DNA of 64,000 nucleotides, taken from contig OX336348.1 of NCBI GenBank assembly GCA_946902875.1, positions 15,649,741 to 15,713,740 of the forward strand. The letters run 5' to 3'. Below the pieces are notes generated by a model that had not been told where the DNA came from, made no database searches, and was given only the letters and a program-made list of their open reading frames with translations. Below are positions 29-23,936 of this stretch, one piece after another (within the stretch, counting starts at the first letter, position 1; the number at the start of each line of letters is the position of its first letter). The DNA is from Nematopogon swammerdamellus. Lineage: Eukaryota; Arthropoda; Insecta; Lepidoptera; Adelidae. A program made the translations under genes and the position numbers.

Positions 29-85
29 ACCCCGAGTAAACATGTTTAGACTTAATTAAAGGCAAACTAAAGCTTATTATAAAGC

Positions 86-469
86 AGTAGATAGGCTATA
101 AGGCTTCGGCTTAGGCTATAAGTGTTGAGTAGAACCTTGTCAAACGAAGCAGTCGTATGTGGGAGTGTGTGTTTTTGGTTGCTAGTGAGTGTGACAAAGT
201 ACTCGTAAATTGTATGGAGTATTCTCTAAGACTGCGCGAGGGGGCGGAGCCTAAATTGGGGCAACCGGCACTCATTAAGGTAATGGCCTCATTAAGCCTC
301 ATTAGAATTACCCAAGAATATGAGGAAAACAGAACCCTTATAGGTTCACTCGCGTGTCTGTCCGTCTGTCCGTCCATCTGTCGCATCAGAAATATTAAGT
401 CTTAAAGTTTTCACGCAAACGAAATGGTGTGGAACCCTCTCAACGCGAGTTCAACTCGCACTTGGGCTA
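86..469 (+). repeat. Left terminal inverted repeat of the PolB element
   Basis: It matches the reverse complement of 20057-20465 over nearly its full length. Differences are a few substitutions and the copy number of a short direct repeat (CATTAAGGTAATGGCCT-like; fewer copies here, about three on the right). It contains a run of GTCTGTCC-type units and a dyad GCGAGTT/AACTCGC near its inner edge. It has no gene; translated stretches across it are incidental. Confidence 0.85.
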
Positions 470-695
470 TATGGGCATCACGCCACCTGCAGAATTCTAG
501 TCCCGAGTGGAACCTTGTAACACAAAGTACTCGATGTGCGTAGCAAACAGGTTCTCTGGGTTTCAAGATGACTTCTTGTGTAGGTATTGCATTGTACACC
601 ATAAACCGTTCTAGATTAATTTAGAAAATCATCTTACCCCGCTACCTCACCACCGCTACCTTGAAAGGGCTCATTAGGCTGACAACGAATTAGAA

Positions 696-1172
696 CAGCG
701 GTCTCCAAACTACGGCCGGCAGACGGGTTGCGCCCGCGAGTCTAATAAATCCAGCCCGCGACCAAGCGCCCAGACTACGATGTAACCCGGTTCTGCCAAT
801 CTATTATCACAAAATCTGCATACCTACAGATCAAATTTGTCCGATGAACGCTTGAAAGCAATTCTTGTTATAGGTTCAACTAAAATTCGTCTAAAAATTC
901 AACAAATGCTAGGTGAAAAGTGACAGCTGCATAAATCCCACTAAGTACTGACTTGTATGAAGATTTATATCAACAAATAAATAACTAAAAGTTATTGTGT
1001 AAATGCAAACATTACTGTTGATAGGCAGGTGTTTATAAATTTTTAATAAACGTGTGTATAGTCAAATATTCGCGTTTGATTTGAATATATTGCTTTCCTA
1101 ACATGTAGAAATTTAATCATTTTTATCATATGACTTGTCCGGCCCTGTTCTGAAAAAGGTTGGAGACCCCTG
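696..1172. mobile_element. hAT-type MITE with 8-bp target duplication
   Basis: The ends are inverted: CAGCGGTCTCCAA at 696 and TTGGAGACCCCTG at 1160-1172. The 8 bases AATTAGAA flank it on both sides (688-695 and 1173-1180). An 8-bp duplication and CAG...CTG termini are the hallmark of hAT superfamily elements. At 477 bp and without an open frame it is a non-autonomous copy. It inserted between the left TIR and the promoter of the polymerase gene. Confidence 0.88.
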
Positions 1173-1206
1173 AATTAGAAAGTTAGCATGCAGTAATTAA
1201 AGCGTG

Positions 1207-1213
1207 TATAAAG
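1207..1213 (+). promoter_or_regulatory. TATA box upstream of the polymerase gene
   Basis: TATAAAG lies 91 bases before the start codon at 1304. The same heptamer is found upstream of the minus-strand gene at 19318-19662 (19860-19866), which suggests a shared promoter style in the element. Assigned by sequence only. Confidence 0.5.
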
Positions 1214-1303
1214 AGCGTCCCCCACAACCAACAGTTCACTTAACCATTGCATCTTCAACTGTTAATGTGTTTAAGTATACTGTGTGCTAATTATTCTATC
1301 AAT

Positions 1304-1482
1304 ATGTCGACTGTGGAAGTGTCTAAATTTGTGAGCCTGACGAACGAAGCCTACGAGCTACTAACTCGGGCTAACTCCAACTCCGAGAAAGTGTCCAAGT
1401 GGCTGAAGTATACGAAAGTATGCCTACGGACTCTACGCCCGCTGCTGCGTCTAGAAGATTCTTCCGTGGGTGTAAAACAAAG
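1304..1482 (+). CDS. PolB gene exon 1 (N-terminus)
   Basis: It starts at the ATG at 1304, preceded by a TATAAAG box and a short leader, and ends at a strong donor (AAAG followed by GTGAGT, 1483-1488). It codes for about 59 residues beginning MSTVEVSKFVSL, rich in Ser, Lys and Leu, then leaves a two-base split codon. The next exon begins after TTTCTTTCAG at 1685 and restores the frame. An in-frame GTG/ATG further upstream would lengthen it, but the ATG at 1304 has the more natural context. The function of this segment is unknown; it resembles the short starts of other small proteins in the element only in style (MSxxxxFVSL, compare 19662). Confidence 0.6.
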
Positions 1483-1685
1483 GTGAGTTTTAATTACTTC
1501 ACATTGCTACATTAAACTAAAGTGATTACAATACACACATACCATCACGCCTCTATCCCAGAGGGGTAAGTAGAGACAATTGTGTGCACGGTTCTGACCG
1601 TTTGCTTTATCCACTATACCGCTTCATACATGCACACCGAATACGGGTGCTGCGAAACATTTGCTTACGTTTATGTTTCTTTCAG

Positions 1686-2014
1686 AAATATAACGTGTAT
1701 CGGTCAGCTGGAGTGCATCAAACTCAAGTTCGAGCAACTTTTGAAGACTGGTGGACGTCTGGATGAGCGAGTGCGACAGCGGAGACTTGGACTCGGCCTT
1801 CGAGCAGCGCATCAGGACCGGTGTAGTAGCGAACCTGCTGCACAAGGACGCTCTGCCGTTCCTCGACGATGCTGAGGCGCTCTTCCAACCGCGAATTAAA
1901 AATGCTCTGGCGAAAAATAATGCGTTGAAGGTGAATTCGATGTTGGCGGCTGAATTTTACAAAATCAGCACTGAAGGGGAGGAGGTGATTGAACCCAAAT
2001 ATTTTAATACAAAA
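1686..2014 (+). CDS. PolB gene exon 2, cut by insertion
   Basis: It is accepted after TTTCTTTCAG. The first part reads in the phase set by exon 1 (QLECIKLKFEQLL). From about 1780 the conserved reading lies one frame over (LDSAFEQRIRTGVVANLL, then a Leu-Pro-Phe-Leu-Asp stretch and KVNSMLAAEFYKIS), so one small insertion or deletion lies between. The second part belongs to the region that precedes the polymerase domain in insect relatives. Coding stops making sense at the A-run at 2012, where a fold-back insert begins. The frame present at 2012 is the one that resumes at 6434. Confidence 0.72.
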
Positions 2015-2472
2015 AAAAAGTTAATTTAAAAAATAAAAAAACCCGACTGCGTAAAAAATTAACTTTAAATAAAAACTGAAAAGAAAAAAAAACAAGTCCA
2101 GTAGTCTAGAACTCTGTTAAGTAATATTGAATAACTACACCATTGAAATAGTTTCATGATCGATACACACATATAATAAAACAAATAATAAACTCTAATG
2201 CGGAACATAGCGACTTTAACAGTCGGGACCACTTATTGGGAAAATGTCAATGGGTCCCGACTGTTAAAGTCGCTATGTTCCGCATTAGAGTTTATTATTT
2301 GTTTTATTATATGTGTGTATCGATCATGAAACTATTTCAATGGTGTAGTTATTCAATATTACATAACAGAGTTCTAGACTACTGGACTTGTTTTTTTTCT
2401 TTTCAGTTTTTATTTAAAGTTAATTTTTTACGCAGTCGGGATTTTTTATTTTTTAAATTAACTTTTTTTATT
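2012..2472. repeat. Fold-back: ~218-bp inverted arms around a 22-nt centre
   Basis: The arms at 2012-2230 and 2253-2472 are nearly perfect reverse complements; the centre is 2231-2252. Both outer edges contain the motif CCCGACTGCG. Translated frames across it have no meaning. Confidence 0.9.
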
Positions 2473-3720
2473 TTACACTTTTTAGTTAGGATTATAAGAC
2501 CGTAAATTTCGTAATCTTGTCATTTCATTGAGAAAGTTAATATCGTGGTGATTATTAAGTACTTCGATCATAAAAAATATTAAGATTCCGCAAGTCAGTC
2601 CGAATCGTGCCCCACCAAAACTACATGCAATTCAAATAATACATGCATCGCCCGCTCATTCTGCCATCGACCGCCAGCGCGAGAGGAGTTGCTTCAGCGT
2701 CGAATATATTACACAAATGCCGGCTTGAAGCCTCTGCATGGCATACGAGTGCATCTGGCATTATATTTCAAGAGTGAAAACCCCTTGAAATACAATATTT
2801 TATAAGAAAAAGTAAAAATTTTCACTTCATACATTTAATGCGTTTGGATAAAGTGGAGATGGCTTCTTTAAATTATATTTTTTTACCTCACCACCTTTGA
2901 AAACGGTAACGGATTCCCAAAAGAATTATTTTATAATATATATATTTTAGTATATTAGATGGCAATTTGAAAAGCTACAATAAAATCAACAAAATACCAG
3001 AACTCTTAAACATGATTTTTATTTACAGATTTTTTATTGTGTTTTCTTTGTTTTTTTTATTGAAAGCGCGACATGTGGCGCCGACGCACCCATAAGATGT
3101 CTAAAGACGCCCATAGACATTTGGTCGTATGCGGGGGTTGCGAATGCCATGCCGGCCCGACAGGTGCCTATTCACGCCCCTCTTGAAGGACCCGAGACTG
3201 TACTTGGGAGGAAATATATAGACAGGAAAGCGTCCCCGAGTTTACCGGTTCTATAGAGGAAAAATCTGCAGAAGAGATTAGTACGCATCCACGGTAAGTC
3301 CAGCGTGTGGGGATGCAATCCTTTTTAACAAATTCCTCTTTTCAAACAATTTACCTTTTAAAAGCTTATATTTGGCAGAGCCATCCCACAGGTGCAAGCA
3401 GGACTCCAAGCATGACCTGATCTGCGATTTGTGTAAAAGGACTTACGTGCACAAGAAATTTACGTGTTTCTTTCTTGGTTGGTTTTTGTTTGATTCTTAC
3501 AGATTTTGAATATAATATTTATTTGCTTTATGAAAGGTATATGACAAAGTGGTTCAAAAAAGTTAACTTCAAAGGGAGGAATACGAAAATATGAAAAACT
3601 GGTCTCGTTAAAGTAGTTAGTGAGAAATTATTATTTAGGTTGACCGCAAAATTAAGTTTGTTTGTAATATATTTATGTATCACAAAATAACCAGTTTGGT
3701 GGTTTAAAAAATTTTATCAG
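2473..3720. other. No gene recognised; AT-rich insert interior
   Basis: Mostly AT-rich. A GC-richer patch at 3065-3300 (Cys-coding, MSKDAHR-like reading) and a possible acceptor-preceded stretch at 3379-3500 with spaced Cys and His codons (C..D...ICDLCKRTY) may be fragments of a transposon protein, but they are too short to assign. Confidence 0.4.
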
Positions 3721-3773
3721 GGTTAATTTATAAAAGATGCGTCACTACGCTCCGCATCTTTTATAAATTAACC
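3721..3773. repeat. Perfect 21-bp hairpin
   Basis: The arms 3721-3741 and 3753-3773 are exact reverse complements around an 11-nt loop. It lies in otherwise featureless AT-rich DNA and could be a MITE core or the tip of a decayed fold-back. Confidence 0.8.
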
Positions 3774-4767
3774 GTAACCTAATAGGGACCATGTCGAGGC
3801 AGCCCGTGTCGTTTTTGCACACATGTCTATTCAAAATAAATGTTTTTGTAGTTAAAAAAAAGTAAAGTTTTAATTTTGCATGAACAATTGAAAATTTTAA
3901 GTTGTATGGAATCTGTTTCTTTTTTTTTCAGTAAACGAAATAAACTACGCCGGCAAAACATTATTTCACTAAAATTTCTTTTTTTACTCTTTTAAGCTTA
4001 CTAGCAATCTGCTAGCAAACTTCCCCACTTTAAAGCTACGCCCCCATCGTATTTGTGCGGAACCTTCGGTTTGTGGGTTGGTCTGTGTTTTTAATGTTAG
4101 TAATATATTGGCTTTATTTCTAGTAGACACTTAACACTATTAAGCTTAAATTGAGATATTTCTGTCATGATTGTCATTTTGAGAAAGAAAGACAGGAGAT
4201 GAACGAATTATTTAAGAATCTTAATTTAAGCACATCTGTCAAATTTTAGGTGATTTTAGTTGCAAGTGATATAAGACACGTCTAAACTCGACAAACATTG
4301 ACAAATGTGTTTGAAATTTTTATAAAATAATTCACTCATCGTCCATAGGTTTTCTTTCACAAATAAAGGAAAAAAATTTGCAATAAATGTTTTTATTATA
4401 TAATTTCATAATAAAAATTAAAAAGCCACCTCCATAGTTTTGAGCCGTTGAAGCAAGCGGCAATTTATCGATCGACTACGTGCGACATTCGCTTGTTTTG
4501 GAACAGGTAATTGTTTGCGTGGAGCGTGCAGGCAAGCGATACGGGATTACTGCGCGTGGAAAAAGGATGACACAATATCGCTGCGGATCTCTTGAGATTG
4601 TCGGTCCTTTATTACGCGATACGCACACTACCATAACCACGGTGTCTCGTTTTAGTAATAAATAATTGAAGTATGAAGTGCGGAGTCCAGAACTATTTTT
4701 TCCGTCTACGATTAAGTAGCTTTCGGTGGTCTAAACTACTGATAATTTTATTGATTATTATTAATGA
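3774..4767. other. No gene recognised
   Basis: AT-rich non-coding DNA. Short open frames at 4480-4665 and 4673-4861 match nothing known to me, and the second overlaps the inverted repeat that follows. Confidence 0.4.
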
Positions 4768-5923
4768 TTGTCACGTGGTATCGAGACACGATTTGTTTTC
4801 TTTATTTTTGAAAATTACCAAAAAAATCAGCCTTGAACCCTTGTACCTTTTTCGTTTATGATTGTATCAGCACGAAACAAAATTTATTGGATTTTATAAT
4901 GTATCCTTATTCTAGAAAAAATATCATTTGATGAAGTTAATACAATGAATAGAGATGAAATGAAATGAAGTGAAGTTCCATATGACCTGCGAATTAGTTG
5001 CTCCACCTGGGCTTCAAACTTAAAAAAAAACACGCCGAGATCCCTGGACGATGTCGCGATGGGTATGGAAACGTTGTTTAACTTGAAACATGGACTGAAT
5101 TGCATCATTTTACTGATCGCGTGCTTGGTCCCCAGCACAACTATTACGGTTTTATTCGGGTTCAGGCCCAAGCCGCACTGCTCTGCTCTGAATATTACTT
5201 ATGACCTCCGAAAGTCCCGAGAACGAGTAAAAATATGACAGAATCTTAGTTTCTTAATTCATTTAAAAAAAGACTGACAGCATTTTCTTTTAAAAAGTTC
5301 GCTAGTTTACGCCATTTCCAACGGTATACCAAATGTCATACAAATAATTCACTATGAGGTCAAAATTAGGGACATAGACCAGAATAGAACAACACGGGCA
5401 CTTTGTAACAGGACCACTTACTTATCGGTGGTCGCTTCCCGTACTGAGAGCGTTTTCCGGAGCATTTTCAAATTTAGAACATGTACCGGTCGCGCGGGCA
5501 CTTTGTTCAATTCTCCAATATTAATGTTTAGATTCTTGCAAATTATCTCTAATTTTGATCACATAGTGAATGATTTGTATAAAATGTGGTATACCTTTGG
5601 AAAGGGCGTAAACTAGCAAACTTTTTAAAGAAAACGACGCTCTCAATTGGTGTTTTTTTTTTTTTAATGAATTAAGAAATTAAGATTCTGTCATCTTTTT
5701 ACTCGTTCTCGGAACTTTGGGAGGTCATAAGTCCTTTTCATGGTATTAACTTCATCAAATATTTTTTTTTCTAAAACAAGGATACATTGTAAAATTCAAT
5801 AAATTTTATTTTGTGCTGATACAAACACGAACAAAAAAGTTACAAGGGTTTAAAGCTGGGATTTTGGTAATTTTCAAAAATAAAGAAAAAAAAATCGTAT
5901 CTCGATACCACGTGACACCTGAC
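4768..5923. repeat. Inverted repeat with divergent ~0.4-0.5 kb arms
   Basis: The outer edges (4768: GTCACGTGGTATCGAGAC; 5902-5923 its complement) and the inner parts (5210-5390 against about 5530-5740) pair as reverse complements with many substitutions. The left arm contains about 250 bp (4935-5190) absent from the right arm, namely a LINE fragment. The unpaired centre is about 5390-5520. Confidence 0.75.
4884..5171 (-). pseudogene. LINE reverse-transcriptase fragment
   Basis: About 95 codons on the minus strand read like the end of the RT palm/thumb of a Jockey/CR1-type LINE: LNPNKTVIVVLGTK, then a SRDLGVFF motif and EAQVEQLIRRSYGTSLHF. The order NPxKT-x-G-(22-25 residues)-RxLGV is usual C-terminal to the catalytic YADD. 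No catalytic motif is present, so it is a 5'-truncated dead piece. It sits only in the left arm of the surrounding inverted repeat, so it arrived after the fold-back formed. Confidence 0.65.
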
Positions 5924-6289
5924 AAAAGGTATGTTAGGTCAAAACGTTGCAAATGACCCCACTTACCTACAAAAAAAATTTGTCGGCCGATATGCCGAGC
6001 ATCCTGTATAATAAGAACTTTATCACAGTTCTATTATTATAAGAGTGAGAATGGCTGCTAACCAACTTTAAATCGTTATAGATCCTAAATGGTCATTCGA
6101 AATGAAAAATGATAAGAAAAACCTAGAGATCATTTTCAAATACCTATTCAACGATACCCCACTTAACATAGATAGTCAACTTTAATTTTTTTCTTTTTCA
6201 CAATATGGCACCTAGTTGTCGCCATATGGAATTTTGATTACTGTCATGTCTTTAGTGACACTCGCAAGATTAAGACAAATCGATTGACG
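5924..6289. other. No gene recognised
   Basis: AT-rich non-coding DNA between the inverted repeat and the CATA-bearing terminus of the insert. Confidence 0.4.
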
Positions 6290-6345
6290 TAAGAATCATC
6301 AAAATCGGCCCACGCGTTTGGTCTCTAGTGTGCCACAAAGGAACA

Positions 6346-6388
6346 AACATACACACATACATACATACATACATACATACATACATAG
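6346..6388. repeat. CATA microsatellite next to the ACCCGACT-type terminus
   Basis: Tandem CATA units are followed by a CCTCCTTTGCGTCGCGCAG motif and the end GTCGGGT at 6430. The same CATA-CTCCTTTT-GTCGGGT order is found at 11699-11857. Confidence 0.85.
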
Positions 6389-6430
6389 GCTGATAAACAC
6401 ATTACCCTCCTTTGCGTCGCGCAGTCGGGT

Positions 6431-9008
6431 AAAAATGCAATCATTATCCAAACCACGGACTTGGGCGTGTGGTTTAATGAGCATGTCCGCCAACCCATTT
6501 TGAAAGACTTGGAAGAATTTCAACAACGCGATTCCGGCTGGTCCCTGCGCAGTATAATCAATTTAGCGGTGAACATCAACCGCTACAACCCCATGCGTGG
6601 AAGCTCCTTCATCCGACTCCCACTGACCATTCAGCGCGATGACAACACGATGCGAGTGCTATATCCGCAAGGATGGTGCGCTCGGGAGGCGGTGGGTTTG
6701 AAGGTGACCATTCAGCGCAAGCATGCGTGCGTCAACGTCGTAAATGAAGATGATATGTGCTTCAAGTGGGCCGTGCTCTCGGCGCTGCACCCAGCCCACA
6801 TCCACACTGAAAGGATTTCAAACTACAGGCCGTATGAACATGAGTTGAATTTTGACGGAATTGAATTTCCTGTGAGGCTTAAGGATGTGAGTAAGTTTGA
6901 GCGACAGAACAATATTTCTGTCAACGTTTATGTGCTGCTTAAAAGGGGTAAGAGCCAGCAGTACGTAGTCGCCCCGACCCATATCACCAGCGAAAAGAGG
7001 GATGAGCACATAAATTTGCTGCTCATCCAGGACAAATACTGCAGCAGCGACGACGTAGAGGAGCAGCAAGAGGGTGAGAACGGAGAGCCCAGCAAGTACC
7101 ACTACGTGTGGATTAAAAATCTCTCCCGCCTGGTGAGCAAGCAACTTTCGAAGAATAAGGTAAAACATCACATCTGCGACCGTTGCCTGCACTACTTTCA
7201 TAGCGCAGAAAAGCTGCAGATGCATGAAGTAGACTGCCGAAAATTGAACAAGTGCAGAGTACGCTCCCCTCACCGCAGAACGCCACCCTGAAGTTCAAAA
7301 ACTTCAACTACAAGGAGAAGGTGCCGTTCTGCGTGTACGCCGACTTCGAGTGTCTGCTGCGAAAGCCGGAGGGTGGGCAAACGAATGTGCGGCAAGAGCA
7401 TGAAGCATTCAGCGTCGGCTATTACTTTAAGTGCTCGTACGATGACACTCTCTCGCGCTACGGCAGCTACCGCGGAGAGAGACCGGCCGAATGGTTTGCT
7501 CGAGAGCTTCTGCAATTGGCTGAAGACGTCGAGACTGTATTCTGGTGCCCACTACCTATGGAGCAGCTGACTGTGCACGAGGAGCAGAGCTTCCGCCGGG
7601 CCACTGTGTGTCACATTTGTGAGGGGCATCTACACGGTAAGGTGGTGCGAGATCACTGTCACCTGACCGGCAGATACCGTGGACCGGCACATGAAGATTG
7701 CAACCTGAACTACCAGGATTCAAGGGCGATCCCGGTGGTGTTCCACAATCTCAGCGGGTACTACGCCCACTTCATCATAAAGGAGATAGCTACATGCATC
7801 GAGGGGCGCATCAACATCCTCCCCATCAATATGGAGCGCTATATCTCCTTTACGAAACACATAAAGGACAGCGATATCTCATTCCGCTTCGTGGATTCGC
7901 TGCGCTTTATGGCGTCATCCCTCGAGAAGCTGGCCTCCTACTTGCCAGAGTACCGCATCCTCGAGAGTCAGTTCAACCACCTGGACGATGGGAAATTCAA
8001 GCTGCTCACCCGGAAGGGAGTATTCCCCTACGAGTTCCTCGATTCGTGGGACAAGTTGGAATCTACGAACGAGCTACCGCCGAAGGAGCTATTCTATAGC
8101 GAGCTGACGAACACCAACGTCTCCGCCCAGGACTATGAGCATGCGGAGAAAGTGTGGACTACCTTCGGAATTGGCAGCCTGGGGGAATACTCCGACCTCT
8201 ACCTGAAGACGGACGTACTGCTTCTCGCCGACGCCTTTGAGAACTTCCGGGAGAATTGCCTTAAGACCTATGGACTGGACCCGGCTCCCTACTACACCAC
8301 ACCTGGCCTGACGTGGGATGCCATGCTGAAGTATACGAAGGTGGAACTTGAGCTGCTTACTGACATAGATATGATTTTGTTCGTGGAGCGTGGCATCCGA
8401 GGAGGCATCAGCCAGTGTAGGAACCGATACTCGCGCGCCAACAACAAATACATGCCAGACTACGACCCTGAGAAGCCGCCCACCTACTTGATGTATTATG
8501 ACGTCAACAACTTGTACGGATTCTCCATGCAGCAGTACCTGCCCTACGGCAACTTTAAGTGGGTGGATGCGGAGACGACGGACTGGCGTGTATCGGACGA
8601 GTCACCGGTGGGGTACTTCCTCGAGGTGGACCTGGAGTACCCGCAAGAGCTGCACGACACACACCGCGACCTCCCCATGTGCCCCGAACACAAGCAGCCG
8701 CCCGGATCCAAAGACGCGAAGCTGCTGACAACTTTGGATCCGAAGACTAGATATGTGATCCACTATCGAAGCCTTAGGCAAGCCGTCGACTCAGGCTTAA
8801 TGATCACGAAGATCCACCGAGTGCTTCAGTTCGGGCAATCGCCGTGGCTGAAGGAGTACATCGACCTCAACACGGCGATGCGCACACGGGCGGGGAATGA
8901 GTTTGAGAAGAACCTATACAAGCTCATGAACAACGCGGTGTTCGGCAAGACGATGCAGAACGTCCGCAAGAGGGCCACCATCAAGCTGGTCACCAAGTGG
9001 GGTGGCAG
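6431..9008 (+). pseudogene. PolB gene main exon (palm, exonuclease and EndoVII-like domains)
   Basis: It resumes after the insertion with TDLGVWFNEHV and continues through RDSGWSLRSIINL to a C2HC finger (CDRC...H...C, 7175-7237), which commonly precedes the exonuclease domain in this polymerase group. Between 7255 and 7270 the reading shifts by one frame; the conserved text resumes as [15 protein letters not shown]. Exo I is VYADFE (7333-7350). The Cys/His block 7609-7713 (CHIC...DHCH.TG.YRG.AH.DCN) is the recombination endonuclease VII signature placed within the exonuclease region. Motif A is DVNNLYG (8500) and motif B is NNAVFGK (8929). The donor is GCAG followed by GTATAT at 9009. GC content is clearly higher than in the flanks. 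Confidence 0.9.
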
Positions 9009-9145
9009 GTATATATCACCTTTATAATATTATGCTTTCACTGCGATACTTTAAACTGCTAGACATACACCTCCAGCGCCTTCAGCAGTACCACAATCTG
9101 GTTGACTGATATGTGTATACTAATATATATTTTCTTTTGTTTCAG

Positions 9146-9615
9146 ATATGGAGCGGAGGCCCTCATTACGCAACCGAACTTCCACAGCCGCGCCATATTC
9201 GGTGAAGACCTCGTGGCAATCCGGCTCACAAACTTAGACGTTCTCCTAAACAAGCCGATATACGTGGGGGCTGCAGTCCTCGACCTCTCCAAGACGTGTG
9301 TGTATGCGTTCCACTACGCATATATGCTTGCTGAGCATCAGGAGCGTGCCAAGCTCCTCTACACCGATACAGACAGCCTCATCTACGAGATTCGGTGTGA
9401 GGATGCGTATTCGGTCATGCGACGGGATAACGAACGGTTCGACACTTCAGACTATCCCACCGACAATGTGTTCGGAATGCCACTCGTCAACAAGATGGTC
9501 GTCGGCCTCATGAAGGATGAGTGCTGCGGACGCATCATGACCGAGTTTGTTGGCCTGCGCTCAAAGATGTACAGCATATGCGTTGAAGGCAAAGACACCC
9601 TCAAGAAGGCCAAAG
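9146..9615 (+). CDS. PolB gene exon with motif C
   Basis: It is accepted after TTTTGTTTCAG and keeps the frame of the preceding exon through a split codon. It codes for about 156 residues: GAEALITQPNFHSRAIF, KPIYVGAAVLDLSK, then the catalytic YTDTDSLIYEI (motif C, Asp codons at 9366 and 9372), and a conserved MTEFVGLRSKMYS segment typical of protein-primed PolBs of this family. The donor is AAAG followed by GTAAAT. No stops or frame changes. Confidence 0.9.
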
Positions 9616-9727
9616 GTAAATATAACTATTTTCTGATATTTTAACAATATGTTTTTTTATTTTAGCTATTTTCTGTATATTTTTCACATATTTTCTGTGT
9701 ATCTAATATATATTTTTCTTGGTTCAG

Positions 9728-10277: not shown

Positions 10278-11460
10278 CTAGCTTTTTCCCGCGGCTTCGC
10301 TCGCGTGAAATTCGTATTTCAAAGGAAGAACTAAGGGCGAGCTGGGTTCAGGCTAGTAACTAAGGGCGAGCTGGATTCAGGTAAACGATAAACCGTCTCG
10401 AAGAAAGTGAGTAACTTTTTGAGGCCGAAGGCGGAGTTGCGTTCAGGAAGACGATAAACCTTCTCGAAGACAGTAAGTAACTATGGGCGAGGCCGAAGGC
10501 CGAGCTGCGTTCAGGATGAGGGTAACCTTTCCGAAGAAAGTAAGTAACAGAGGGCGAGGCCGAAGGCCGAGCTGCGTTCAGGAAAACGATAAACCTTCTC
10601 GAAGACAGTAAGTTACTATGAGCGAGGCCGAAGGCCGAGCTGCGTTCAGGATGAGGGTAACCTTTTCGAAGAAAGTAAGTAACAGAGGGCGAGGCCGAAG
10701 GCCGAGCTGCTTTCAGGAAAACGATAAACCTTCTCGAATACAGTAAGTAACTATGGGCGAGGCCGAAAGCCGAGCTGCGTTCAGGAAGAGGATAACCTTT
10801 TCAAAGAAAGTAAGTAACAGAGGGCGAGGCCGAAGGCCGAGCTGCGTTCAGGAGTACCATAAAACTTCTCAAAGAAAGTAAGTAACAAAGGGCGAGGCCG
10901 AAGGCCGAGCGCAGCTCGGCCTTCGGCCTCGCCCATAGTTACTTACTTTCTTCGAAAATGTTCATCTTCTTCCTGAACACATCTCGGCCTTCGATCTCGC
11001 CCATAGTTACTTACTGTCTTCGAGAAGGTTTATCCCACAGAGCACGAAATCCGCGCGCCGCGCCTCCTAGAGACGCCCTGAGCGCGATTTCCCTACAACG
11101 CTGTTGAAGCCTGTGGGCGTGGCCTATGACTTACATATGTGTGTTGTGCGTGTGAATTTGTTTTGTGCGTGTGCCTAACTTGCTCCTCTTTGTGTGTAGT
11201 GTCGATACTAACACACACACACACATACGAAGCGCTAGTTGCACTGCGTCCAGTTATTGGGTTTCAAATATTATCGCTTAGGGCGTCTCTAGGAGCGACG
11301 CAGCTCCTGAACGCAGCTCGGCCTTCGGCTTCGCCCTTTGTTACTTGCTTTCTTCGAGAAGGTTTAGGGTCTTCCTGAACGCAGCTCGGCCTTCGACCTC
11401 GCCTTTTGTTACTTACTTTCTTCGAGAAGGTTCATAGTCTTCCCGAACGCAAATCCGAAA
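10278..11460 (-). mobile_element. Helitron 3' end plus 68-bp satellite (partly inverted)
   Basis: Reading leftwards, the sequence ends GAGCGAAGCCGCGGGAAAAA then CTAG at 10278. This is the usual lepidopteran Helitron 3' terminus. To its right lie copies of a 68-bp satellite monomer (core GGCCGAAGGCC) at 10320-10908 and, after an abrupt switch to the opposite strand at about 10909, at 10910-11035 and 11300-11455. About 270 bp of unrelated sequence with a CACACA run (11036-11300) lies between. The 5' end was not found. Confidence 0.7.
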
Positions 11461-13899: not shown

Positions 13900-14430
13900 A
13901 TGGAATACGCACTCGATATTCAAGGCTTCAGATGGGCTCTAGATGAGTATGCAGTGAAGGAGTTAGGCATACTTCCGCTGAACAATGAGGGTTCAAAACC
14001 AGCAGTTTGGGTATTCAAACCACCGCATGCTTGGCGATACCTGAGCCTACATCACATGAAGGAAAATCGTTGGCTGGAACGCCATTATCTCGGCGGTTTG
14101 AAATGGAGTTCAGGTGATATTCCCTACGGTGAAATGGCGGATGTCTTGTGGAAAAACCTTCATGCAGCGGAGCGAGTGTACGTTAAAGGTCTAGAGAAGA
14201 AGCGGTGGCTGCAGCGATTCAACTTCAATGTGTGTGACCTGGATGAAATGGGCTGTCCGCCGCTGCAAGTACTTCGCACATCGTCGGAAACCACACCATG
14301 CGCTCACCATATCACATCTACCGCACACTGTGCGTTTATAAATGTATCGCTGATGAAAGATTTTATTCTGAGAAATAAATGTTTTGAAGTTTCAAATTCG
14401 TTTCACTACAATCCAACTACTCACATCTGA
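13900..14430 (+). CDS. Small conserved protein with DIQGF signature, nuclease-like (function unproven)
   Basis: The ATG at 13900 opens MEYALDIQGFRWALDEYAVK; the frame continues 177 codons to a stop at 14428. An open stretch before it follows a possible acceptor (TTGTTTTGCAG, 13792), so an upstream exon is possible. Conserved-looking landmarks are the N-terminal DIQGF, WVFKPPHAW, W-L-x-RHYLGGLKW, PYGEMADVLW, RVYVKGLEKKRWLQRF, and near the end a Cys/His group (CAHH...HCAF). The same layout is familiar from uncharacterised insect proteins encoded with PolB-type elements. The early acidic residue followed by the YVKGxEKxxWL block suggests an RNase H-fold or exonuclease-like protein, but that is inference. 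It lies in the same orientation as the polymerase. Confidence 0.6.
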   Translation: MEYALDIQGFRWALDEYAVKELGILPLNNEGSKPAVWVFKPPHAWRYLSLHHMKENRWLERHYLGGLKWSSGDIPYGEMADVLWKNLHAAERVYVKGLEKKRWLQRFNFNVCDLDEMGCPPLQVLRTSSETTPCAHHITSTAHCAFINVSLMKDFILRNKCFEVSNSFHYNPTTHI

Positions 14431-14995: not shown

Positions 14996-17040
14996 GTTAG
15001 AACTCTCATAGCCTCTGTAACGTATCCCGTAACTGCCTCAAAAGTAACACTGTCATTACTTCTTTTATCAACAGAGGAACGTCAAATATTTATACAGAAA
15101 TCCTCGTTACTACGAGTAAACTCTGAAATAAACCATGGCCTGCGTTTAGCATTCAAGTGATCTCTAGGTAAGCTCAGACAATGTATACATGCGTATACAA
15201 TGACCTAAGCGGAAATGGACCCTGTCTCTTTCTCTCTTCAAGAAAGCGTTGTGTAACCGTATCACCCAGAGTACTAACTCAAACCTTAACCTTTCTATCC
15301 AAATCTTTGTTCTATGGGTTATAATCTAACTACATCTATAATTTCCTGTCTAAGTCCGCCTTTCCTACGTCACTATGCCTCCTCTACCACGTTGCAACAA
15401 TCTATGTTCTCTCCTCCGGAAATTCCTACACCTGAGGAAACGTGTGTATTCTTCAACCAGTTTATTCTCTTCCTAAAAGGAAGTATGTAGCCTTATCCTG
15501 AAGATGTGTGACCTTGTGTGAGATCACTATCCTTACTTCTGGAATACCTACAAGGTTCAACGACTTCTCTTACCAAAGGGAACTACTATATGCTTTTCTC
15601 CTCGACCGATCAGATAGGCTAGCACTGATCTAGGAGTATAAGCACTTCTTTTCTTCAGCTGGAAGATATAGCGTTCTATCACATCCAACGGTAAATAACT
15701 CACCCCCTTGCAGGAGTTAGGGGAAACAGCTGGAAGGGAATTGCCTAGGCTTTCTCGAACTTAGCATTTCAAATTATATTTTCCTTTTGGTCTAACAGCT
15801 TAAAAGCCACGGCCTAGCAGGAGATAGATGGAACACCTGGAAGAAATTTATCTAGCTTTTTAGGGACCTAGTCTTCTTTTAGAAGAATAACAGCTGTTAC
15901 GCAATAAAGTATCCCTGCCTAGCAGGAGTTAGAAAAGAGGTCTTAAAATAATTTATTTAATGTTTATTGTACCTGGCTTTTCTTTCGCATCGTTTCGTGC
16001 CTACATTCATTAGCTTTATTATTGTAAATGTTCTTATGTTTCTACTCAGGACTATATACTTTCTATGATTAAAGGCTCTTCCTTTTATCTGTTTGGTATC
16101 AAACACTTTATCTTTCGCTTCGCAAGATCAGAAAATTTACCCCAAGAGGGGTAGACAATGGGCCCCCTTGAACCAGGTGAGGTTTTCTCACCTTAGTTCC
16201 ACCACGCCCATCGCTGTGAACTTCAACCAGTTTGACTGAGGTACTACTCCTCACTCAAAGTTGTACCTAAAGGTCTCCTGTCTATTCTGTGCAAATGAAG
16301 CGTTCCCTCTGTCGGGATTACTTTAACTGCGTATGTGTAATGTATGTACAATGCTCCTTATTAGAACATTGCACCTACGCGTCTAGTGTACCTATTGTGT
16401 TCCTGCCTACCTCTCCTAAGTAAAATACCCAATTTAGGCAACCCTAACTGTAACTTCGTCTCCCTCCCTAGACATCTCTTTAGTCGATCCGTTAATACGT
16501 GCATCGAACCTTCGAGACGCCTCTACTTCTGTGGCCATGGAAATGTAATCTTCCCCAAAGCAAGAGAGACCGGGTCCACGCTATTCTCTTACTTACGAAC
16601 TCTAAACGTACGGGTACGCTCAAAGAACATTAATTTACTACGATGGACACCTGACAAGACCCCTAGCTAATCACTTATAAAAGGACACTCGTCTACCTGG
16701 TACAGGTCTTCCTACACTTCTGGAACACACTGCAATCCAATACGAACACAACACCTCTACCTACGTTAACCTTGGCCTTTATGTAAGCCCATTTCACTAC
16801 GTGATCACACCACCAAACCACACGGAGTCACTTGTACACATCCACAGTTTAAAATATACTTTCGACGCTTGTCTTATCGTAGTTTTTAGTGCCTGAGGCC
16901 TAACGAGTCGTAGATTTTAACAATATTTTTAGTCGCTCGATCACCGTCCAGTGCGATTATTCATTCTACCAATACCCAAATCATTCTTATACTGACTGCT
17001 TCAATCGCTGCTCGTTCCCTCTCTAGTTTCATGAGTAACT
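14996..17040. other. 2 kb with no gene recognised
   Basis: It lacks convincing coding on both strands. Its base composition is more balanced than the AT-rich neighbours. A frame at 16386-16670 is open but matches nothing known to me and has no splice or start context. Three loosely repeated GCAGGAG(T/A)TAG motifs lie about 105 bp apart (15712, 15818, 15920). It may be the decayed remains of the element's missing genes or a non-coding LTR-type insert. Confidence 0.4.
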
Positions 17041-18057
17041 TAGATTCAGTTCCCTTAGCATTTTTCAGCATAGGGAACCTCCTCCATTTACTCCCAAAGC
17101 TATCAAACGTCTGGTTTCCTAGCATATTTCAGCATAAGGAACCCATCCGTACGCGACGTTAGCTGGAGAAGCTGGGACCTCAACTTTAAAGAAACCTTCA
17201 AGATTCGAATTCTAGCATCTTTCAGCATAAGAATTCTCCTCCATGAGCTCCGCGAAACTATCAGACATGTGTTTCCTTAGCATATTTCAGCATAGGCACC
17301 ACACGTTCATGGCCAGCTGTAGGCCTTAATCTCAACCGCGATTGATGCAGTGTACATGGCAATTATATCAAGTGTCTGTATATTTTCCTAACTTAGCAGC
17401 ACCTTAGATTCAGTTCCCTTAGCATTTTTCAGCATAGGAAACCTCCTCCAATTGCTCTCAAAGCTATCAAACGTCTGGTTTCCTAGCATATTTCAGCATA
17501 AGGAACCCAGCCGTGCGCGACGTTAGCTGGAGGAGCTCGACCCTCAATTTAAAAGAAGCCTTCAAGATTCGAATTCTAGCATCTTTCAGCACAAGAATTC
17601 TCCTCCATGAGCTCCGCGAAACTATCAGACATGTGTTTCCTTAGCATATTTCAGCATAGGCACCACACGTTCATGGCCAGCTGTAGGCCTTAATCTCAAC
17701 CGCGATTGATGCAGTGTACATGGCAATTATATCAAGTGTCTGTATATTTTCCTAACTTAGCAGCACCTTAGATTCAGTTCCCTTAGCATTTTTCAGCATA
17801 GGAAACCTCCTCCAATTGCTCTCAAAGCTATCAAACGTCTGGTTTCCTAGCATATTTCAGCATAAGGAACCCAGCCGTGCGCGACGTTAGCTGGAGGAGC
17901 TCGACCCTCAATTTAAAAGAAGCCTTCAAGATTCGAATTCTAGCATCTTTCAGCACAAGAATTCTCCTCCATGAGCTCCGCGAAACTATCAGACATGTGT
18001 TTCCTTAGCATATTTCAGCATAAAGGCACCACACGTTCCTGGCCAGCTGTAGGCCTT
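17041..18057. repeat. Array of 12 stem-loops with a constant loop in three ~364-bp units
   Basis: Units start at 17041, 17404 and 17769; the third is cut short after its fourth hairpin. Each unit holds four copies of a loop AGCAT-N-TTTC-AGCAT flanked by inverted stems of different sequence. In unit 1 these are GTTCCCT/AGGGAAC (17049-17078), GGTTTCCT/AAGGAACC with one bulge (17113-17143), GAATTCT/AGAATTC (17207-17236) and TGTTTCCT/AGGCACCACA, imperfect (about 17268-17303). The stems differ but mostly stay complementary. This is unlike ordinary satellite decay and resembles protein-binding iterons or structured RNA. Function is unknown. Confidence 0.8.
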
Positions 18058-18783
18058 ACATCCCTATTCCGTTCTATTATGAATTCAGACTCTCAATATT
18101 TTTGATCAAACTAGTTCGGACTAGACTGGACGATGATCACTAACGCGCGGCGCCTTGCCAAGCCAAACACTCACCGTGAGTATTTGTTAAAATTTAGCTG
18201 GCTCCCGAAACTTGACTGATTCGATGTCCACTGCGCACGAGTTTAAATGGCCCTCACCCGGACCCTTCGGCTCTACTTCGTTTCCTGTCGTTCCCGAACG
18301 CTCTTAGCCAATCAAAAGCCTTCCCTTCCATAAGGACCCCACTCCTAACAGCGCCTCTGTCGGCCGATTTAGACATTGAAATACTGCCTCGCCGGACGAC
18401 CAACTGACATGAACACCCTTCAAGCCATTGCGAGTTAACCTACGCGCCCTCTATACGTAAAATACACGCGATCGCTTCATCACTGCCATCTATCTACTTT
18501 TGCTCGCATTACGTGAAAGTTTGAGTATGTGCAACCTATAAGTTCTACTCGCGCCCGCGTGACGATGTCACGTGATTATTTCACTTCTAGTTCGCGACTA
18601 GGCGTCTAGATGGCTGTACTTATCTCGTTTTAATCAATAAATTAATTCTTCTTATTATATCTTACGTAAGCTAATGGTACCCTCTGTGTTCGTCACACCT
18701 CCCTATGACTTTACTTTTGTTTCATTTATGGGGTGTGGTGGGTGGGTTGAAATAAAAGTATTCACTGTAAAAAATATTAATTT
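18058..18783. other. No gene recognised
   Basis: Balanced-composition DNA between the hairpin array and the 3' end of the BIR gene. Nothing coding was identified on either strand. Confidence 0.4.
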
Positions 18784-18790: not shown

Positions 18791-18796
18791 AATTAA

Positions 18797-19182
18797 TCAT
18801 TTCAAGTTAAAGGCTCCATCGTCTGATAGGGTATAGAAGTATGGTGAATAGCTCGGGATGTCAATCTCGTCCAATCCTTTTGCTTTAGCGGTGGCGAAAT
18901 CAGCTCCCTTCATTATGTAGACGAAAGCGCAGCGTCCCAGCAGCCCCGCGTGCTCCTCCCACGGTGTGTCTTCCGGTCGCCACTGGTTGAGTGTTCCTCC
19001 GCAGTAAAAGCACACCACTTTGTCACCGAAACCAGTGTAGAAAAAACCAGTCTTAGCCATTTCTTCAGGCTTCTGCCGGAGGGCGCGTGGCCAATCGTAC
19101 CCGAGGTATGCACCTGGATAGTCGTTTGCGGCATTGTAGCGGAGGCTGTAGACGCGTAGCTCGGCGTAATGTTGTTCACTGA
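18797..19182 (-). CDS. Single-BIR protein (IAP-like), last exon
   Basis: Read on the minus strand, the frame is open from a possible acceptor (TTATTAG, about 19183) to the stop at 18797, about 128 codons. It holds one complete baculoviral IAP repeat: YDWPRAL, then MAKTGFFYTGFGDKVVCFYC, and the zinc ligands C-x2-C-x16-H-x6-C (CFYC ... EEH ... GRC), with the usual W-x-P-x-D-x-PW-x-EH order. BIR proteins bind caspases or pro-apoptotic peptides and block apoptosis. There is no RING domain; the chain ends about 28 residues after the BIR. The first in-frame ATG (19058) would remove the N-terminal half of the BIR fold, so an upstream exon or another start is expected; none was found in the about 130 bp before the neighbouring gene's poly(A) site. 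It lies inside the TIR element, so it is probably captured cargo. Confidence 0.82.
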
Positions 19183-19293
19183 CTAATAACTAAACATTTT
19201 TCGCATACAAATGTATTCCAAATTCTACACACTAAATACTTCTTTCAATATCTCTAGTTATAATAAAACAAAAGTTTTGAGCACTAAAATTCT

Positions 19294-19303: not shown

Positions 19304-19317
19304 AAAACTATTCATGA

Positions 19318-19662
19318 TCACCAACTTTCTGCTCTAGATAAATATTCAAATTTGACAGAATAGTGTGGTCCTCCTAAATAGTACATAGCTAATAAATTAT
19401 TATTCGCTGCTTCTTCCATGCTTTTGTATACTTCAGCATTCTCATCAAAAGCTTTTGTAATTCTCATTGGTAGGAACACTGCGAAAGCTTTGTCTAAATC
19501 AGCTACATATCTGGGTCCATACTTTGTTGTAACTCTACGTAGTTGGGTGATGTAGTACATATGTCTCTCGAGTAGATCAGCTAGTTTCTTTGTTGCCAAA
19601 TAGGTTGAATCGGCAACTTTGTTGATCTCAACCAGACTCACGAACGAGTGGTTGCTCGACAT
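19318..19662 (-). CDS. Small 114-residue protein of the PolB element (possible DNA-binding, unproven)
   Basis: The start ATG is at 19662, right after a likely 5'-UTR acceptor (CTTCTCAG, 19670); a GTGAGT donor at 19785-19780 would define a 116-bp leader intron, and TATAAAG lies at 19866-19860. The protein begins MSSNHSFVSLVEINKVADST and contains LLERHMYYITQLRRVTTKYG, DLDKAFAVFLPMRI and, at the end, AMYYLGGPHYSVKFEYL. It has no Cys, no signal peptide and no membrane segment. The beta-rich pattern with Arg/Lys/Thr and a final YLGG-x-F motif recalls small proteins often found near such polymerases in insect genomes, where a single-strand DNA-binding role is plausible; I cannot assign a family. 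It is transcribed towards the BIR gene, in the same direction and upstream of it. Confidence 0.6.
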   Translation of the reverse strand: MSSNHSFVSLVEINKVADSTYLATKKLADLLERHMYYITQLRRVTTKYGPRYVADLDKAFAVFLPMRITKAFDENAEVYKSMEEAANNNLLAMYYLGGPHYSVKFEYLSRAESW

Positions 19663-19669
19663 TATGGAC

Positions 19670-19785
19670 CTGAGAAGACGATAAAATTTCTGGTTAGCTT
19701 AGAGAAATTAATTCTGAAAATATGAGAATTAATTTAAGGTATATATTGAGAAAATGTAAATGTTCATAAAAAAGATTTCACTCAC
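19670..19785 (-). other. Predicted 5'-UTR intron
   Basis: On the minus strand the donor CA|GTGAGT (19786/19785) and acceptor CTTCTCAG|GTCC (19670/19669) bracket AT-rich sequence with a stop in every frame. The start codon lies 7 bases after the acceptor. Confidence 0.5.
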
Positions 19786-19859
19786 TGATATGGTTCTTGA
19801 TGTCTTCTACTGTATAGCTGGAGTATGCGAATGCAATACATTTTGTTGAAACATCATGT

Positions 19860-19866
19860 CTTTATA
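19860..19866 (-). promoter_or_regulatory. TATA box of the small minus-strand gene
   Basis: TATAAAG on the minus strand, about 75 bases before the leader-intron donor; identical to the box before the polymerase gene. Confidence 0.5.
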
Positions 19867-20056
19867 CTAAGAGTATTTCACAATAGAAGATGTGATAGTT
19901 GTTATACACACACAACTAGTATAGACCTGTTTATGATGTTCAAAATACCTACTCGATGATGTAAGAAGACATCTTGAAAATCACAGAACCTGTTTGCTAC
20001 GTACACCCAATATTATTGCAGCCAACTATGTATGTTGACTTGAAATATGCAAGCAG

Positions 20057-20465
20057 CCAAATGCGAGTTGAACTCGCGTTGAGAGGGTTCCGCACCATTT
20101 CGTTTGCGTGAAAACTTTAAGACTTAATATTTCTGATGCGACAGATGGACGGACAGACGGACGGACACGCGAGTGAACCTATAAGGGTTCTGTTTTCCTC
20201 ATCTTCTTGGGTAATTCTAATGAGGCCATTACCTTAATGAGGCCATTACCTTAATGAGGTCATTACCTTAATGAGTGCCGGTTGCCTCAATTTAGGCTCC
20301 GCCCCCTCGCGCAGTCTTAGAGAATACTCCATACAATTTACGAGTACTTTGTCACACTCACTAGCTACCAAAAACACATACTCCCACATACGACTGCTTC
20401 GTTTCACAAGGTTCCACTCAAAACTTAAATTTTTTTTGGGTTAGAAGCCTTATAGCCTATCTACT
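20057..20465 (-). repeat. Right terminal inverted repeat of the PolB element
   Basis: Reverse complement of 86-469, ending CCTATCTACT at 20465. It contains about three copies of an ATTACCTTAATGAGG unit where the left TIR has fewer. Confidence 0.85.
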
Positions 20466-20779
20466 TAAGGGGGGGTACTAGGCAAAACATCACATCATAT
20501 TTTATTTTTTTTATTTTTATTTATTTATTATAGAATCAACATCTTTACAGTTACAATCAATTAAGTAGTAAAAACTTGTACAATATTAAAGACAATAACA
20601 GATTCAAGCAATATTGATATAGTATGGTATAAACCACAGTATAGACGGAGAACATTTGAGTTGCATTGCAAGAAAGAGAGAGCCTATTATCCTAACTATA
20701 GCCATATTTCAATAGATATAACCATAATTTATATGCTTATAGTTAGTTAAAGATTCAAGTTATAATGTGTGATAGATTA

Positions 20780-20814
20780 TCCATACTAATATTATAAATT
20801 CGAAAGTAACTCTG

Positions 20815-20854
<40 letters not shown>

Positions 20855-23345
20855 TACCTTTTCACGCCTAAACCGCTGAACAGATTTCGATAAAATATTG
20901 CACGGGGATGAATTGCATCCAGAGGACGGACATAGGCTACTTTTTGTCTCAAAAAACAACCCTTAAGGGGGTGAAATAGGGGATGAAAGTTTGTATGGGG
21001 AACTCAGCATTTCTTAAGTTAGGGATATGACAATTTATATTTGGGCTTTTGGTATGAAATAAAGAAATACGTGTTTCATCGTTTTTGCTAAATCAACCCT
21101 TAAATTAAAATAGGGGTTGATTTCAAAATTAGATTTTAGGATTTTATGAAATTTTGTACGGAGCTGAATTGCATCCTGAGGAAGAACATAGGCTACCTTT
21201 TGTCTCAAAAAAACAACCCTTAACGGGGTGAAATAGGGGATGAAAGAATGTATGGGGAACCCATCATTTCTCAAGTTAGGGATATGAAAATTCATATTTA
21301 GGCTTTTGGTATAAAATAAAGAATTACGTGTTTCAGCGTTTTTGCTAAATCAACCCTTAAATTAAAATAGGGGATGATTTCAAAATTAGGTTTTAGGATT
21401 TTAAATTATTTTAAATAATTTTATCCATACTGGGGGTGGTTTTGAAGAGCGGGGTTGAGGTACGGGGGAGGAGTCCGCGGGGAGAGGGGAAGGGAGGATA
21501 ATTTAATCTCTATCTTCTTTTCTCTATCTCTACTTCTTATAAAAGGAAACGTCTGTTTGCATGTATGTATGTATGTTTGAGGTAAACTCGGAACCACTTA
21601 ACAGATTTTTATGCGGTTTACACCAATGTAAAAAGTAGTTCTTCAGGCTCACTATAGTAGGCTATATACCATAAAGTTAAATAGCCTTAGGGTTGAGCAG
21701 TATCTAAGAAAACGGAATTTAGTGTCGAATGGTCGTAATATATGGCGTTAGCAGTTCTGTTGCGTTGCGTTGGTGTAGTGTAGAAGATACGAGTAGAATA
21801 AAGAGTAGATATCTATACTTATAAAATTGTTGGTCCTGACTGACTGATCTATTAACGCACAGCTGAAACTACTGAAAGCTGAAATTTGGAACATAGGTTT
21901 ATTTCATAACGTAAGAATCCGTTAAGAATTTTTTGGAAATTACAACTTTAAGGGGGGAAATGGGGACGACGACTTTGTATGAAAGTTTTTGTTTTTTTTT
22001 ATGTAATATTATGGTCTTATGGTCTTCCTGAACGCAGCTCGGCCTTCGGCCTCGCCCTTAATTACTTACTTTCTTCGAGAACGTTTAAAGTCTTCCTGAA
22101 CGCCGCTCGGCCTTCGGCCTCGCCCTCAGTTACTTACTTTCTTCGAGAAGGTTTATAGTCTTCCTGAACGCAGCTCGGCCTTCGGCCTCGCCCTCAGTTA
22201 CTTAGTTTCTTCGAGAAGGTTTATGGTCTTCCTGAACGTAGCTCGGCCTTCGGCCTCGCCCTTAATTACTTACTTTCTTAGATAAGGTTTATCGTCTTCC
22301 TGAACGCAGCTCGGCCTTCGGCCTCGCCCTTTGTTACTTACTTTCTTTGAGAAGGTTTATGGTCTTCCTGAACGTAGCTCGGCCTTCGGCCTCGCTTTCA
22401 GTTAATTACTTTCTTCGAGAAGGTTTATAGTTTTTCTGAATGCAGCTCGGCCTTCGGCCTCGCCCTTAGTTACATACTTTCTTCGAGAAGGTTTATGGTC
22501 TTCCTGAACGTAGCTCGCCCTTCGGCCTCGCTTTCAGTTACTTACTTTCTTCGAGAAGGTTTATAGTCTTTCTGAATGCAGCTCGGCCTTCGGCCTCGCC
22601 CTTAGTTACATACTTTCTTCGATAAGGTTTATAGTCTTCCTGAACGCAGCTCGGCCTTCGGCCTCGCCCTTAATTACTTACTTTCTTTGAGAAAGTTTAT
22701 AGTCTTCCTGAACGCAGCTCGGCCTTCGGCCTTGCCCTTAGTTACTTACATTCTTTGAGAAGGTTTATGGTATTCCTGAACGTAGCTCGGCCTTCGGCCT
22801 CGCTTTCAGTTACTTACTTTTTTCGAGAAGGTTTATAGTTTTCTGAACGCAGCTCGGCCTTCGGCCTCGCCCTTAGTTACATACTTTCTTAGATAAGGTT
22901 TATCGCCTTCCTGAACGCAGGTCGGCCTTCGGCCTCGCCCTCAGTTACTTACTGTCTTCGTGAAGGTTCTTGGTCTTTCTGAACGCAGCTCGGCCTTCGG
23001 CCTCGCCCTTAGTTACTTACTTTCTTCGATAAGGTTTATAGTCTTCCTGAACGCAGCTCGGCCTTCGGCCTCGCCCTCAGTTACTTACTGTCTTCGAGAA
23101 GTTTCATGGTCTTCCTGAACGCAGCTCGGCGTTCGGCCTCGCCGTTAGTTACTTACTTTATTTGACAAGGTTTATCGTTTACCTTAACGCAGCTTGCCTT
23201 CGCCTTCGCCCTTACTCGTACTTACTTTCTTAGATATGGTTTATCGACTTCCTGAACGCAGCTCGGCCTTCGGCCTCGCCCATAGTTACTTACTGTCTTC
23301 TTTGAAATACGAATTTCACGCGAGCGGAGCCGCGGGCTCAGCTAG
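20780..23345 (+). mobile_element. Non-autonomous Helitron carrying a satellite array
   Basis: It starts TCCATACTAATATTATAAA (20780) and ends with a GCGGAGCCGCGGG segment and CTAG at 23342-23345, with host A before and T after, as expected for Helitrons. A TCTG microsatellite (20817-20852) follows the 5' end. Further degraded Helitron-like 5' ends appear inside at about 21530 and 21815, so it is composite. No Rep/helicase frame. Confidence 0.8.
22020..23300 (-). repeat. 68-bp satellite array inside the Helitron
   Basis: About 19 monomers with core GCTCGGCCTTCGGCCTCGCC, considerably diverged from one another (more than the arrays at 27.9, 39.7 and 62.1 kb). Confidence 0.9.
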
Positions 23346-23936
23346 TTGTAATATAATCTTACAAATTCTCTGAAAAATAAGTGGGTGAAAAGTGGTAAAA
23401 ACTTTCGAAAATGCATTTTATATTCTCGTTACAAATACGTCCATACAAAAAACGCTCGCGCACGGCAACGGCCCAAAATTTAGAATGTTCAAAGACAGTT
23501 CAGTGAAAAACTATTTATTCTGTAAGTGTTTGAATTTATTTAGATGATTCTTAGTCTTATTGACTCTAAGCTCAATGAAGCATTTTTCGTATTAGGTGCA
23601 TTTGGAAAAAATGGCGAGGGAAATAGCAAAGGCATTTTTGAACGATTTTACCACTTTTCAATCACATATTTTTAAGGGAGTTTATAAGATTAAATTAAAA
23701 ATAATGTATTCACATTATACCTTGAATCTTTACATAACTATAGGCATATAAATTATAGTTAAATCACTTGAAATATGGGTATGGTTAGGGAAATACGAAG
23801 TGCTTTTGCCTAGTACCCCCCCTTAAAGCTATTATTATACACAAGATGGGAACGCAGGACACAGAGGCAATGAAGGCTATATTATTGCAATTTGATTATG
23901 TTTACCTTAATCGACGAAAGGTATGCTGACAACAAT
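23346..23936. other. Right part of the TTAA element and flank
   Basis: 23346-23822 is the TTAA element; 23827-23936 is the flank between it and the LTR retrotransposon. No gene seen. Confidence 0.6.

Follow-up and report, generated by a model that had tools for sequence, protein, structure and literature searches.

Organization of the element in the window

The 64,000-nucleotide stretch of Nematopogon swammerdamellus DNA analyzed here (C16:15649741-15713740, hereafter the window) contains a decayed mobile element of a known kind, a Polinton/Maverick, bounded by long terminal inverted repeats (TIRs) and a 6-bp target duplication. The left TIR, with an AGTAGATAGG end, occupies 86..465 on the forward strand and the right TIR 20057..20465 on the reverse strand. 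Both start with AGTAGATAGGCTATAAGGC; aligned over 376 columns, the two repeats (380-409 bp) show 14 mismatches and 3 gap events. The left copy of the duplication, TAAAGC, lies at 80..85, while the right copy is split into TAA (20466..20468) and AGC (23827..23829) by a later TTAA element that landed at the boundary between TIR and duplication (20465..23826, both TTAA ends included). This element used the TTAA that arises where the TIR, ending in T, meets the TAA of the duplication, and the first 23 bases of the element, TTAAGGGGGGGTACTAGGCAAAA, are present inverted at its opposite end. A first-pass annotation made from the sequence alone had proposed these inverted repeats, their AG start and the divided duplication, all of which were borne out. 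At the left edge of the window, host flank and the first 20 bp of the left TIR form an 80-bp tandem duplication (1..105, forward strand), in which unit 1 ends at 25, with its remainder upstream of the window (L001), and unit 2 spans 26-105; the two units differ at 2 positions.

Remains of four genes, each named in the first-pass annotation, lie between the TIRs. The N-terminal part of a DNA polymerase B gene (PolB) is found at 1304..2029 on the forward strand (limits set by eye), with a predicted exon at 1304-1482, a GT..AG intron at 1483-1685, a second exon and a broken frame. The remainder, at 6442..9644 on the same strand, is spread over several frames and includes an Endonuclease_7-like stretch under the Pfam cut-off; the PolB pieces match Pfam DNA_pol_B_2 at 1e-27. 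The two parts belong to one gene split by a 4.4-kb insert (2030..6441): the position equivalent to 6442 lies 1.8 kb from the TIR end in two other TIR-bearing loci (L014 and L015), against 6.4 kb in the window. By eye, a predicted intron at 9009-9145 is common to the window and to copies on C8 and C24 and absent from a copy on C28, and C8 has an intron at a position different from that of 1483-1685 in the window. Scans of viral contigs with PolB and with protein P0001 gave no match, nor did a PDB sequence search with either.

Downstream lie a gene for a 176-aa protein with a predicted RNase H-like (DnaQ-like) fold, named DIQGF (13900..14430, forward strand), and, on the reverse strand, an IAP-like gene with a single BIR domain (18797..19189; Pfam BIR, 1.9e-20) and the gene for a 114-aa protein, P114 (19318..19662). 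The region from 9.7 to 13.7 kb contains nested repeats and repeated pieces of the PolB tail. A stretch with a 364-bp tandem repeat (15016..18696) is absent from a second copy on the same contig (copy B, C16:9.55 Mb), and for that reason is taken as a probable later insertion. Two further repeats were noted. The insert that splits PolB contains a hairpin (2054-2429) with 177-bp arms, 92% complementary, around a 22-bp spacer. A family of 68-bp tandem repeats occurs on both strands in at least six places of the window (10362-10910, 22017-23300, 27901-28733, 37072-37769, 39666-40615 and 62139-63583), one of them within the Polinton and one within the TTAA element.

Relatives in the same genome

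The genome searched comprised 699 Mb in 39 contigs. The TIR query gave at least 43 matches (40 of 896 candidates scored). PolB gave at least 74 matches (74 of 279 candidates scored), many with unbroken frames of 1275, 1258 or 1167 aa and closely similar scores. The corresponding figures were at least 150 for BIR (150 of 185 candidates scored), at least 114 for P114 (114 of 118) and at least 101 for DIQGF (101 of 108).

A copy on C28 showed the gene order PolB, ATPase, a 289-aa protein, integrase, a PLA2 protein, a 90-aa weakly adenain-like piece, a 227-aa protein and capsid, with BIR on the opposite strand. Profile matches were Pox_A32 (3.9e-9), rve (4.1e-13) together with a weak Chromo match, and a double-jelly-roll (DJR)-like capsid (9.8e-115). 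The 90-aa piece matched Peptidase_C5 at an E-value of 0.12, under the Pfam cut-off, and its position in the gene order fits a protease. The copy on C8 (C8:17.15 Mb), whose PolB is 94% identical to that of the window, matched the entire C28 set and BIR by tblastn, with the capsid gene in two pieces. The C34 copy matched the C28 set without a BIR match; its PolB lies on the opposite strand, and its P114 is 60% identical to that of the window. In the C3 copy, whose capsid is 68% identical to that of C28, a DIQGF gene follows the capsid gene after 88 bp on the same strand. Copy B (L010) carries the window's TIR, P114 at both ends, BIR at one end and a capsid fragment. The C24 copy, 7.3 kb long, has PolB and BIR as its sole recognized genes within a clean 6-bp duplication.

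AGTAG ends with 6-bp duplications were identified in the copies on C8 (GAGGAC), C28 (CACCCA), C24 (ATTGCA) and C34 (TTTCGG). Eight other TIR-bearing places were fetched, and in three of them (L014, L015 and L018) a PolB of the same orientation lies no more than 3 kb away. Because related ends recur beside PolB elsewhere and the relatives show 6-bp duplications, the structure of the window element is not due to chance. Kimura two-parameter (K2P) distances between the two TIRs of a copy were 0.038 in the window (14/376), 0.017 in C24 (6/368), 0.002 in C8 (1/545) and 0 in C34 (0/94). If the ends were alike at insertion, the largest distance would make the window copy the oldest insertion of the four.

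Elements sharing the exact C28 ends were collected by a search with its 26-base terminus, allowing up to 2 mismatches; a reversed control gave 0 matches. The 44 matches in the genome (22 forward, 22 reverse) resolved into 21 distinct elements and one single end. Fourteen elements have a scored PolB and BIR, and five have two P114, at least two BIR matches and no scored PolB; of the other two, one has BIR matches only and one has BIR and one P114. These contents derive from the matches located on the contigs in question, namely 26 of the 74 PolB, 11 of the 114 P114 and 32 of the 150 BIR, and C15:11.73 Mb, with two forward ends, was counted once. Many PolB-bearing copies have ends other than this 26-mer.

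Origin of the window copy

Both ends, the 6-bp duplication and the remains of PolB, DIQGF, BIR and P114 are present in the window, and relatives with integrase and capsid genes are present in the same genome. The lineage combines the traits of Polintons/Mavericks, with a PolB of the protein-primed type, long AG-start TIRs and the 6-bp duplication and, in near relatives, a putative retroviral-type integrase, DJR capsid and A32-type ATPase. The kinship suggested in the first-pass annotation from the polymerase, the ends and the duplication is in agreement with this. The four genes of the window fit a Polinton gene order from which the ATPase-to-capsid block is missing. We are highly confident that the window holds a decayed insertion of an insect-type Polinton/Maverick with PolB and structural genes on one strand, which lost the ATPase-to-capsid block and has received nested insertions since.

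In the ancestor, linear DNA would have been replicated by the protein-primed PolB, and insertion would have been the work of the rve integrase, linking the AG ends to host DNA across a 6-bp stagger. The BIR protein would have blocked apoptosis in the replicating cell, and the DNA may have been packaged by virion proteins. The window copy would have lost its ATPase-to-capsid block either before or after insertion, and later nested insertions, including the TTAA element that splits the duplication, would have accumulated.

Several observations weigh against this reading. Remnants of the ATPase, 289-aa protein, integrase, PLA2, protease, 227-aa protein and capsid genes were not found in the window by tblastn with the proteins of a relative (E ≤ 0.01). 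Four of the eight other TIR-bearing places (L012, L013, L016 and L017) lack any Polinton gene in the DNA fetched. Two of these, L012 and L013, have TIRs and no PolB and show no 6-bp duplication, and their flanks on both sides are inverted repeats; at L013, a pair of 1964-bp arms is 99.9% identical. Among seven other PolB copies tried, a 6-bp duplication was recovered in four; the ends of the C21 copy could not be resolved, and the C14 and C15 copies have no end pair in the DNA fetched. The first-pass annotation had considered that other copies might lack the 6-bp duplication, which holds for the TIR-only places L012 and L013 and not for C8, C28, C24 and C34. Of the integrase, ATPase, protease and capsid genes that it had suggested looking for, none was found in the window at this threshold, and matches are present in the relatives on C28, C8 and C34, with the protease represented by the weakly adenain-like piece. 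Since the window copy has no integrase or capsid match of its own at this threshold, it is filed as a relic and not as an autonomous Polinton.

The missing block could also mean that the window copy was already a non-autonomous deletion derivative when it inserted, carrying PolB, DIQGF, BIR and P114 only and mobilized in trans by the integrase of full elements. We regard this as possible, though it is not the history we would expect. The C24 copy demonstrates that shortened copies with intact ends exist, and the lack of any block remnant found in the window points the same way; however, C24 may likewise have lost the block after insertion, and the repeated PolB-tail pieces and nested repeats at 9.7-13.7 kb suit decay in place, although timing is not readable from one copy. 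It is very unlikely that the absence of integrase and capsid genes from the window copy marks a separate lineage that never had them and was moved by another enzyme, as the first-pass annotation had proposed in describing a perhaps undescribed lineage: all of those genes are matched in the C8 copy, which has a closely related PolB, a BIR gene and ends of the same type, and copy B, which shares TIR, P114 and BIR with the window, retains part of a capsid gene. Least probable of all is a chance arrangement in which a gene remnant happens to sit between TIRs belonging to some unrelated repeat, as the four TIR-bearing places without PolB, BIR or P114 might suggest, given that PolB stands near the TIR in three of the eight places, that P114 and BIR lie beside the TIRs in copy B and that the 6-bp duplication brackets the entire window element.

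Palindromic loci with BIR and P114

Pairing of matches by their coordinates revealed 48 inward-facing P114 pairs and 47 inward-facing BIR pairs, which together define 42 loci consisting of BIR, P114 and their mirror image. The two BIR genes of a locus are 9.3-13.6 kb apart, and no PolB among the 74 of 279 candidates scored falls within any of the 42. The palindromes were defined by coordinates, and the sequence was read for one of them, C11:22412700-22424500 (L040-L042). Its arms extend over at least 5.1 kb and are 99.7-99.8% alike. Within the 11.8 kb read, BIR and P114 are each present twice, and tblastn found no PolB, ATPase, integrase, PLA2, protease, DIQGF or either of two virion-type proteins. 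At the outer edge of the sequence read, 139 bp are 98.6% identical to a C28 stretch covering the inner portion of the TIR and the bases immediately beyond, and the BIR region is 98.6% identical to that of C28 over 553 bp.

The exact C28-type 26-base end is present at both ends in five of the 42 palindromes, which are 12.5-12.9 kb long; the other 37 did not match at both ends, and the C31 palindrome has the end on one side. Palindromes of the left end may also exist, because in two cases a pair of PolB faces inward at a spacing of 9.3-9.5 kb. At C22:20967502-20981517, coordinates place a PolB ahead of a P114 pair and a single BIR, a possible chimera of a PolB-bearing and a palindromic element.

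We infer that the palindromes formed by strand switching on linear replicons. On balance we lean toward a scenario in which an insect Polinton lineage with a fixed IAP-like BIR gene has spawned satellite Polintons, palindromes of about 12-15 kb with BIR and P114 in each arm, some with the exact ends of PolB elements and none with polymerase, integrase or capsid. These would be parasites of Polintons that retain just a gene for cell survival and one for a small helper of replication, generated by strand switching on linear, protein-primed replicons.

The BIR, P114 and DIQGF genes

Of the 74 scored PolB, 32 are followed within 25 kb by a BIR on the opposite strand, with one PolB entering twice into the 33 pairings and two C8 PolB sharing one BIR. 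Relatives of one PolB clade carry the same BIR gene as the window, and the window and C28 proteins are 88.9% identical over 99 residues. The gene that the first-pass annotation had regarded as unusual cargo is thus real and common to many copies, not peculiar to this one, and the DIQGF protein it had listed alongside is an ordinary Polinton gene, as its position after the capsid gene in C3 indicates. From its profile match, the window gene is predicted to encode an IAP-type BIR zinc domain. Among PDB chains with one matched stretch, the best was 1jd4 (1.1e-28), named apoptosis 1 inhibitor, which we take to be Drosophila DIAP1. A 454-aa open frame at C13:8.82 Mb, a 58% match to the BIR query, may be a host IAP.

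Pairwise ratios of nonsynonymous to synonymous substitution (dN/dS), which are averages over all time with the decay period included, were 0.25 for BIR (98 codons, window versus C28), 0.08 and 0.11 for PolB versus C8 and C24, and, for P114, 0.13 versus C34 (saturated, at a dS of 2.2) and 0.37 versus copy B (78 codons). By this measure, the BIR gene looks to be under purifying selection. A protein search found no homolog of P114, and its structure model (pLDDT 55) was too poor for use; an OB-fold protein with a single-strand-binding role is only a guess.

In its structure model (pLDDT 71), DIQGF adopts an RNase H-like topology and matches DnaQ-like exonucleases, RNase T and, in Foldseek, also Maelstrom. 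DEDD exonucleases share a four-residue acidic catalytic pattern. In an alignment of six DIQGF sequences, D6 and E21 are invariant, and exonuclease activity appears doubtful because one catalytic position, position 8, is Q in all six. A Maelstrom-like reading is a lead only, suggested by the predicted fold: Maelstrom occupies rows 5 and 13 of the Foldseek results and is absent among the 50 VIA rows listed, and C and H residues are conserved in most rows of the DIQGF alignment.

Most DIQGF matches in the genome are at 26-33% identity, and only 4 of the 101 have a scored PolB within 30 kb. The notion that these high-copy genes stand apart from PolB was rejected in view of L037 and of the share of PolB candidates scored (74 of 279). 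At L037:1961-2455, a DIQGF-like gene (about 30% identical) with many similar-scoring copies lies 1.1 kb downstream of the end of a PolB gene, which is 48% identical to C28 there.

Probable exchange of modules between lineages

The C8 and C28 copies are 67-70% identical in DNA sequence across PolB and 98-99% identical from directly past PolB through BIR, with the switch near L019:8027 and L025:7729; their TIRs are 90-93% alike. This pattern is read as probable recombination between Polinton lineages, joining in one copy the window's PolB type with the structural block of another family.

Comparison with known systems

The BIR gene downstream of 32 of the 74 PolB, the 42 palindromic loci and the copy joining one PolB type to another structural block are new to us. 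In the mostly open-access literature seen that might link BIR or IAP genes to Polintons/Mavericks or adintoviruses, no description of BIR-bearing Polintons was found. The mention of BIR in PMC6431247 concerns a planarian retrotransposon, and a term search of PMC11071296 returned no relevant passage. The window copy is a mere fossil, of value in that it leads to the BIR accessory, the palindromic satellite candidates and the module exchange. A genome with many unbroken, like-scoring Polinton polymerase frames, a cell-death-inhibitor gene that seems to be under purifying selection and a candidate satellite class with shared ends could serve to test whether animal Polintons still act as viruses, for what purpose they might block apoptosis and by what route palindromic derivatives arise.

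Polintons/Mavericks in general encode PolB, an rve integrase, an A32-type ATPase, an adenain-like protease and a double-jelly-roll capsid, and have AG ends and a 6-bp duplication. Of these core genes the window copy keeps only PolB, with BIR and P114 as accessories. A relative of the DIQGF protein, P0003, is labelled Glyptapanteles flavicoxis, a member of the wasp genus in which Maverick-like genes have been described (PMC2646287).

The closest comparison is with Mavericks 1 and 2 of Spodoptera frugiperda, for which the sections of PMC5803895 on these elements give the order ATP-ORF2-INT-CAP(PLA2)-PRO-ORF6-ORF7(404 aa)-ORF8. Those sections name no BIR or P114-like gene and describe no palindromic derivatives. 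By description, the gene order matches that of the C28 and C3 copies here, and by order and size DIQGF would correspond to ORF8. PolB lies on the same strand in Maverick 1 and on the opposite strand in Maverick 2, as in C28 and C34, respectively, and a weak recombination-endonuclease-VII stretch within PolB is common to the Spodoptera Mavericks and to the element described here.

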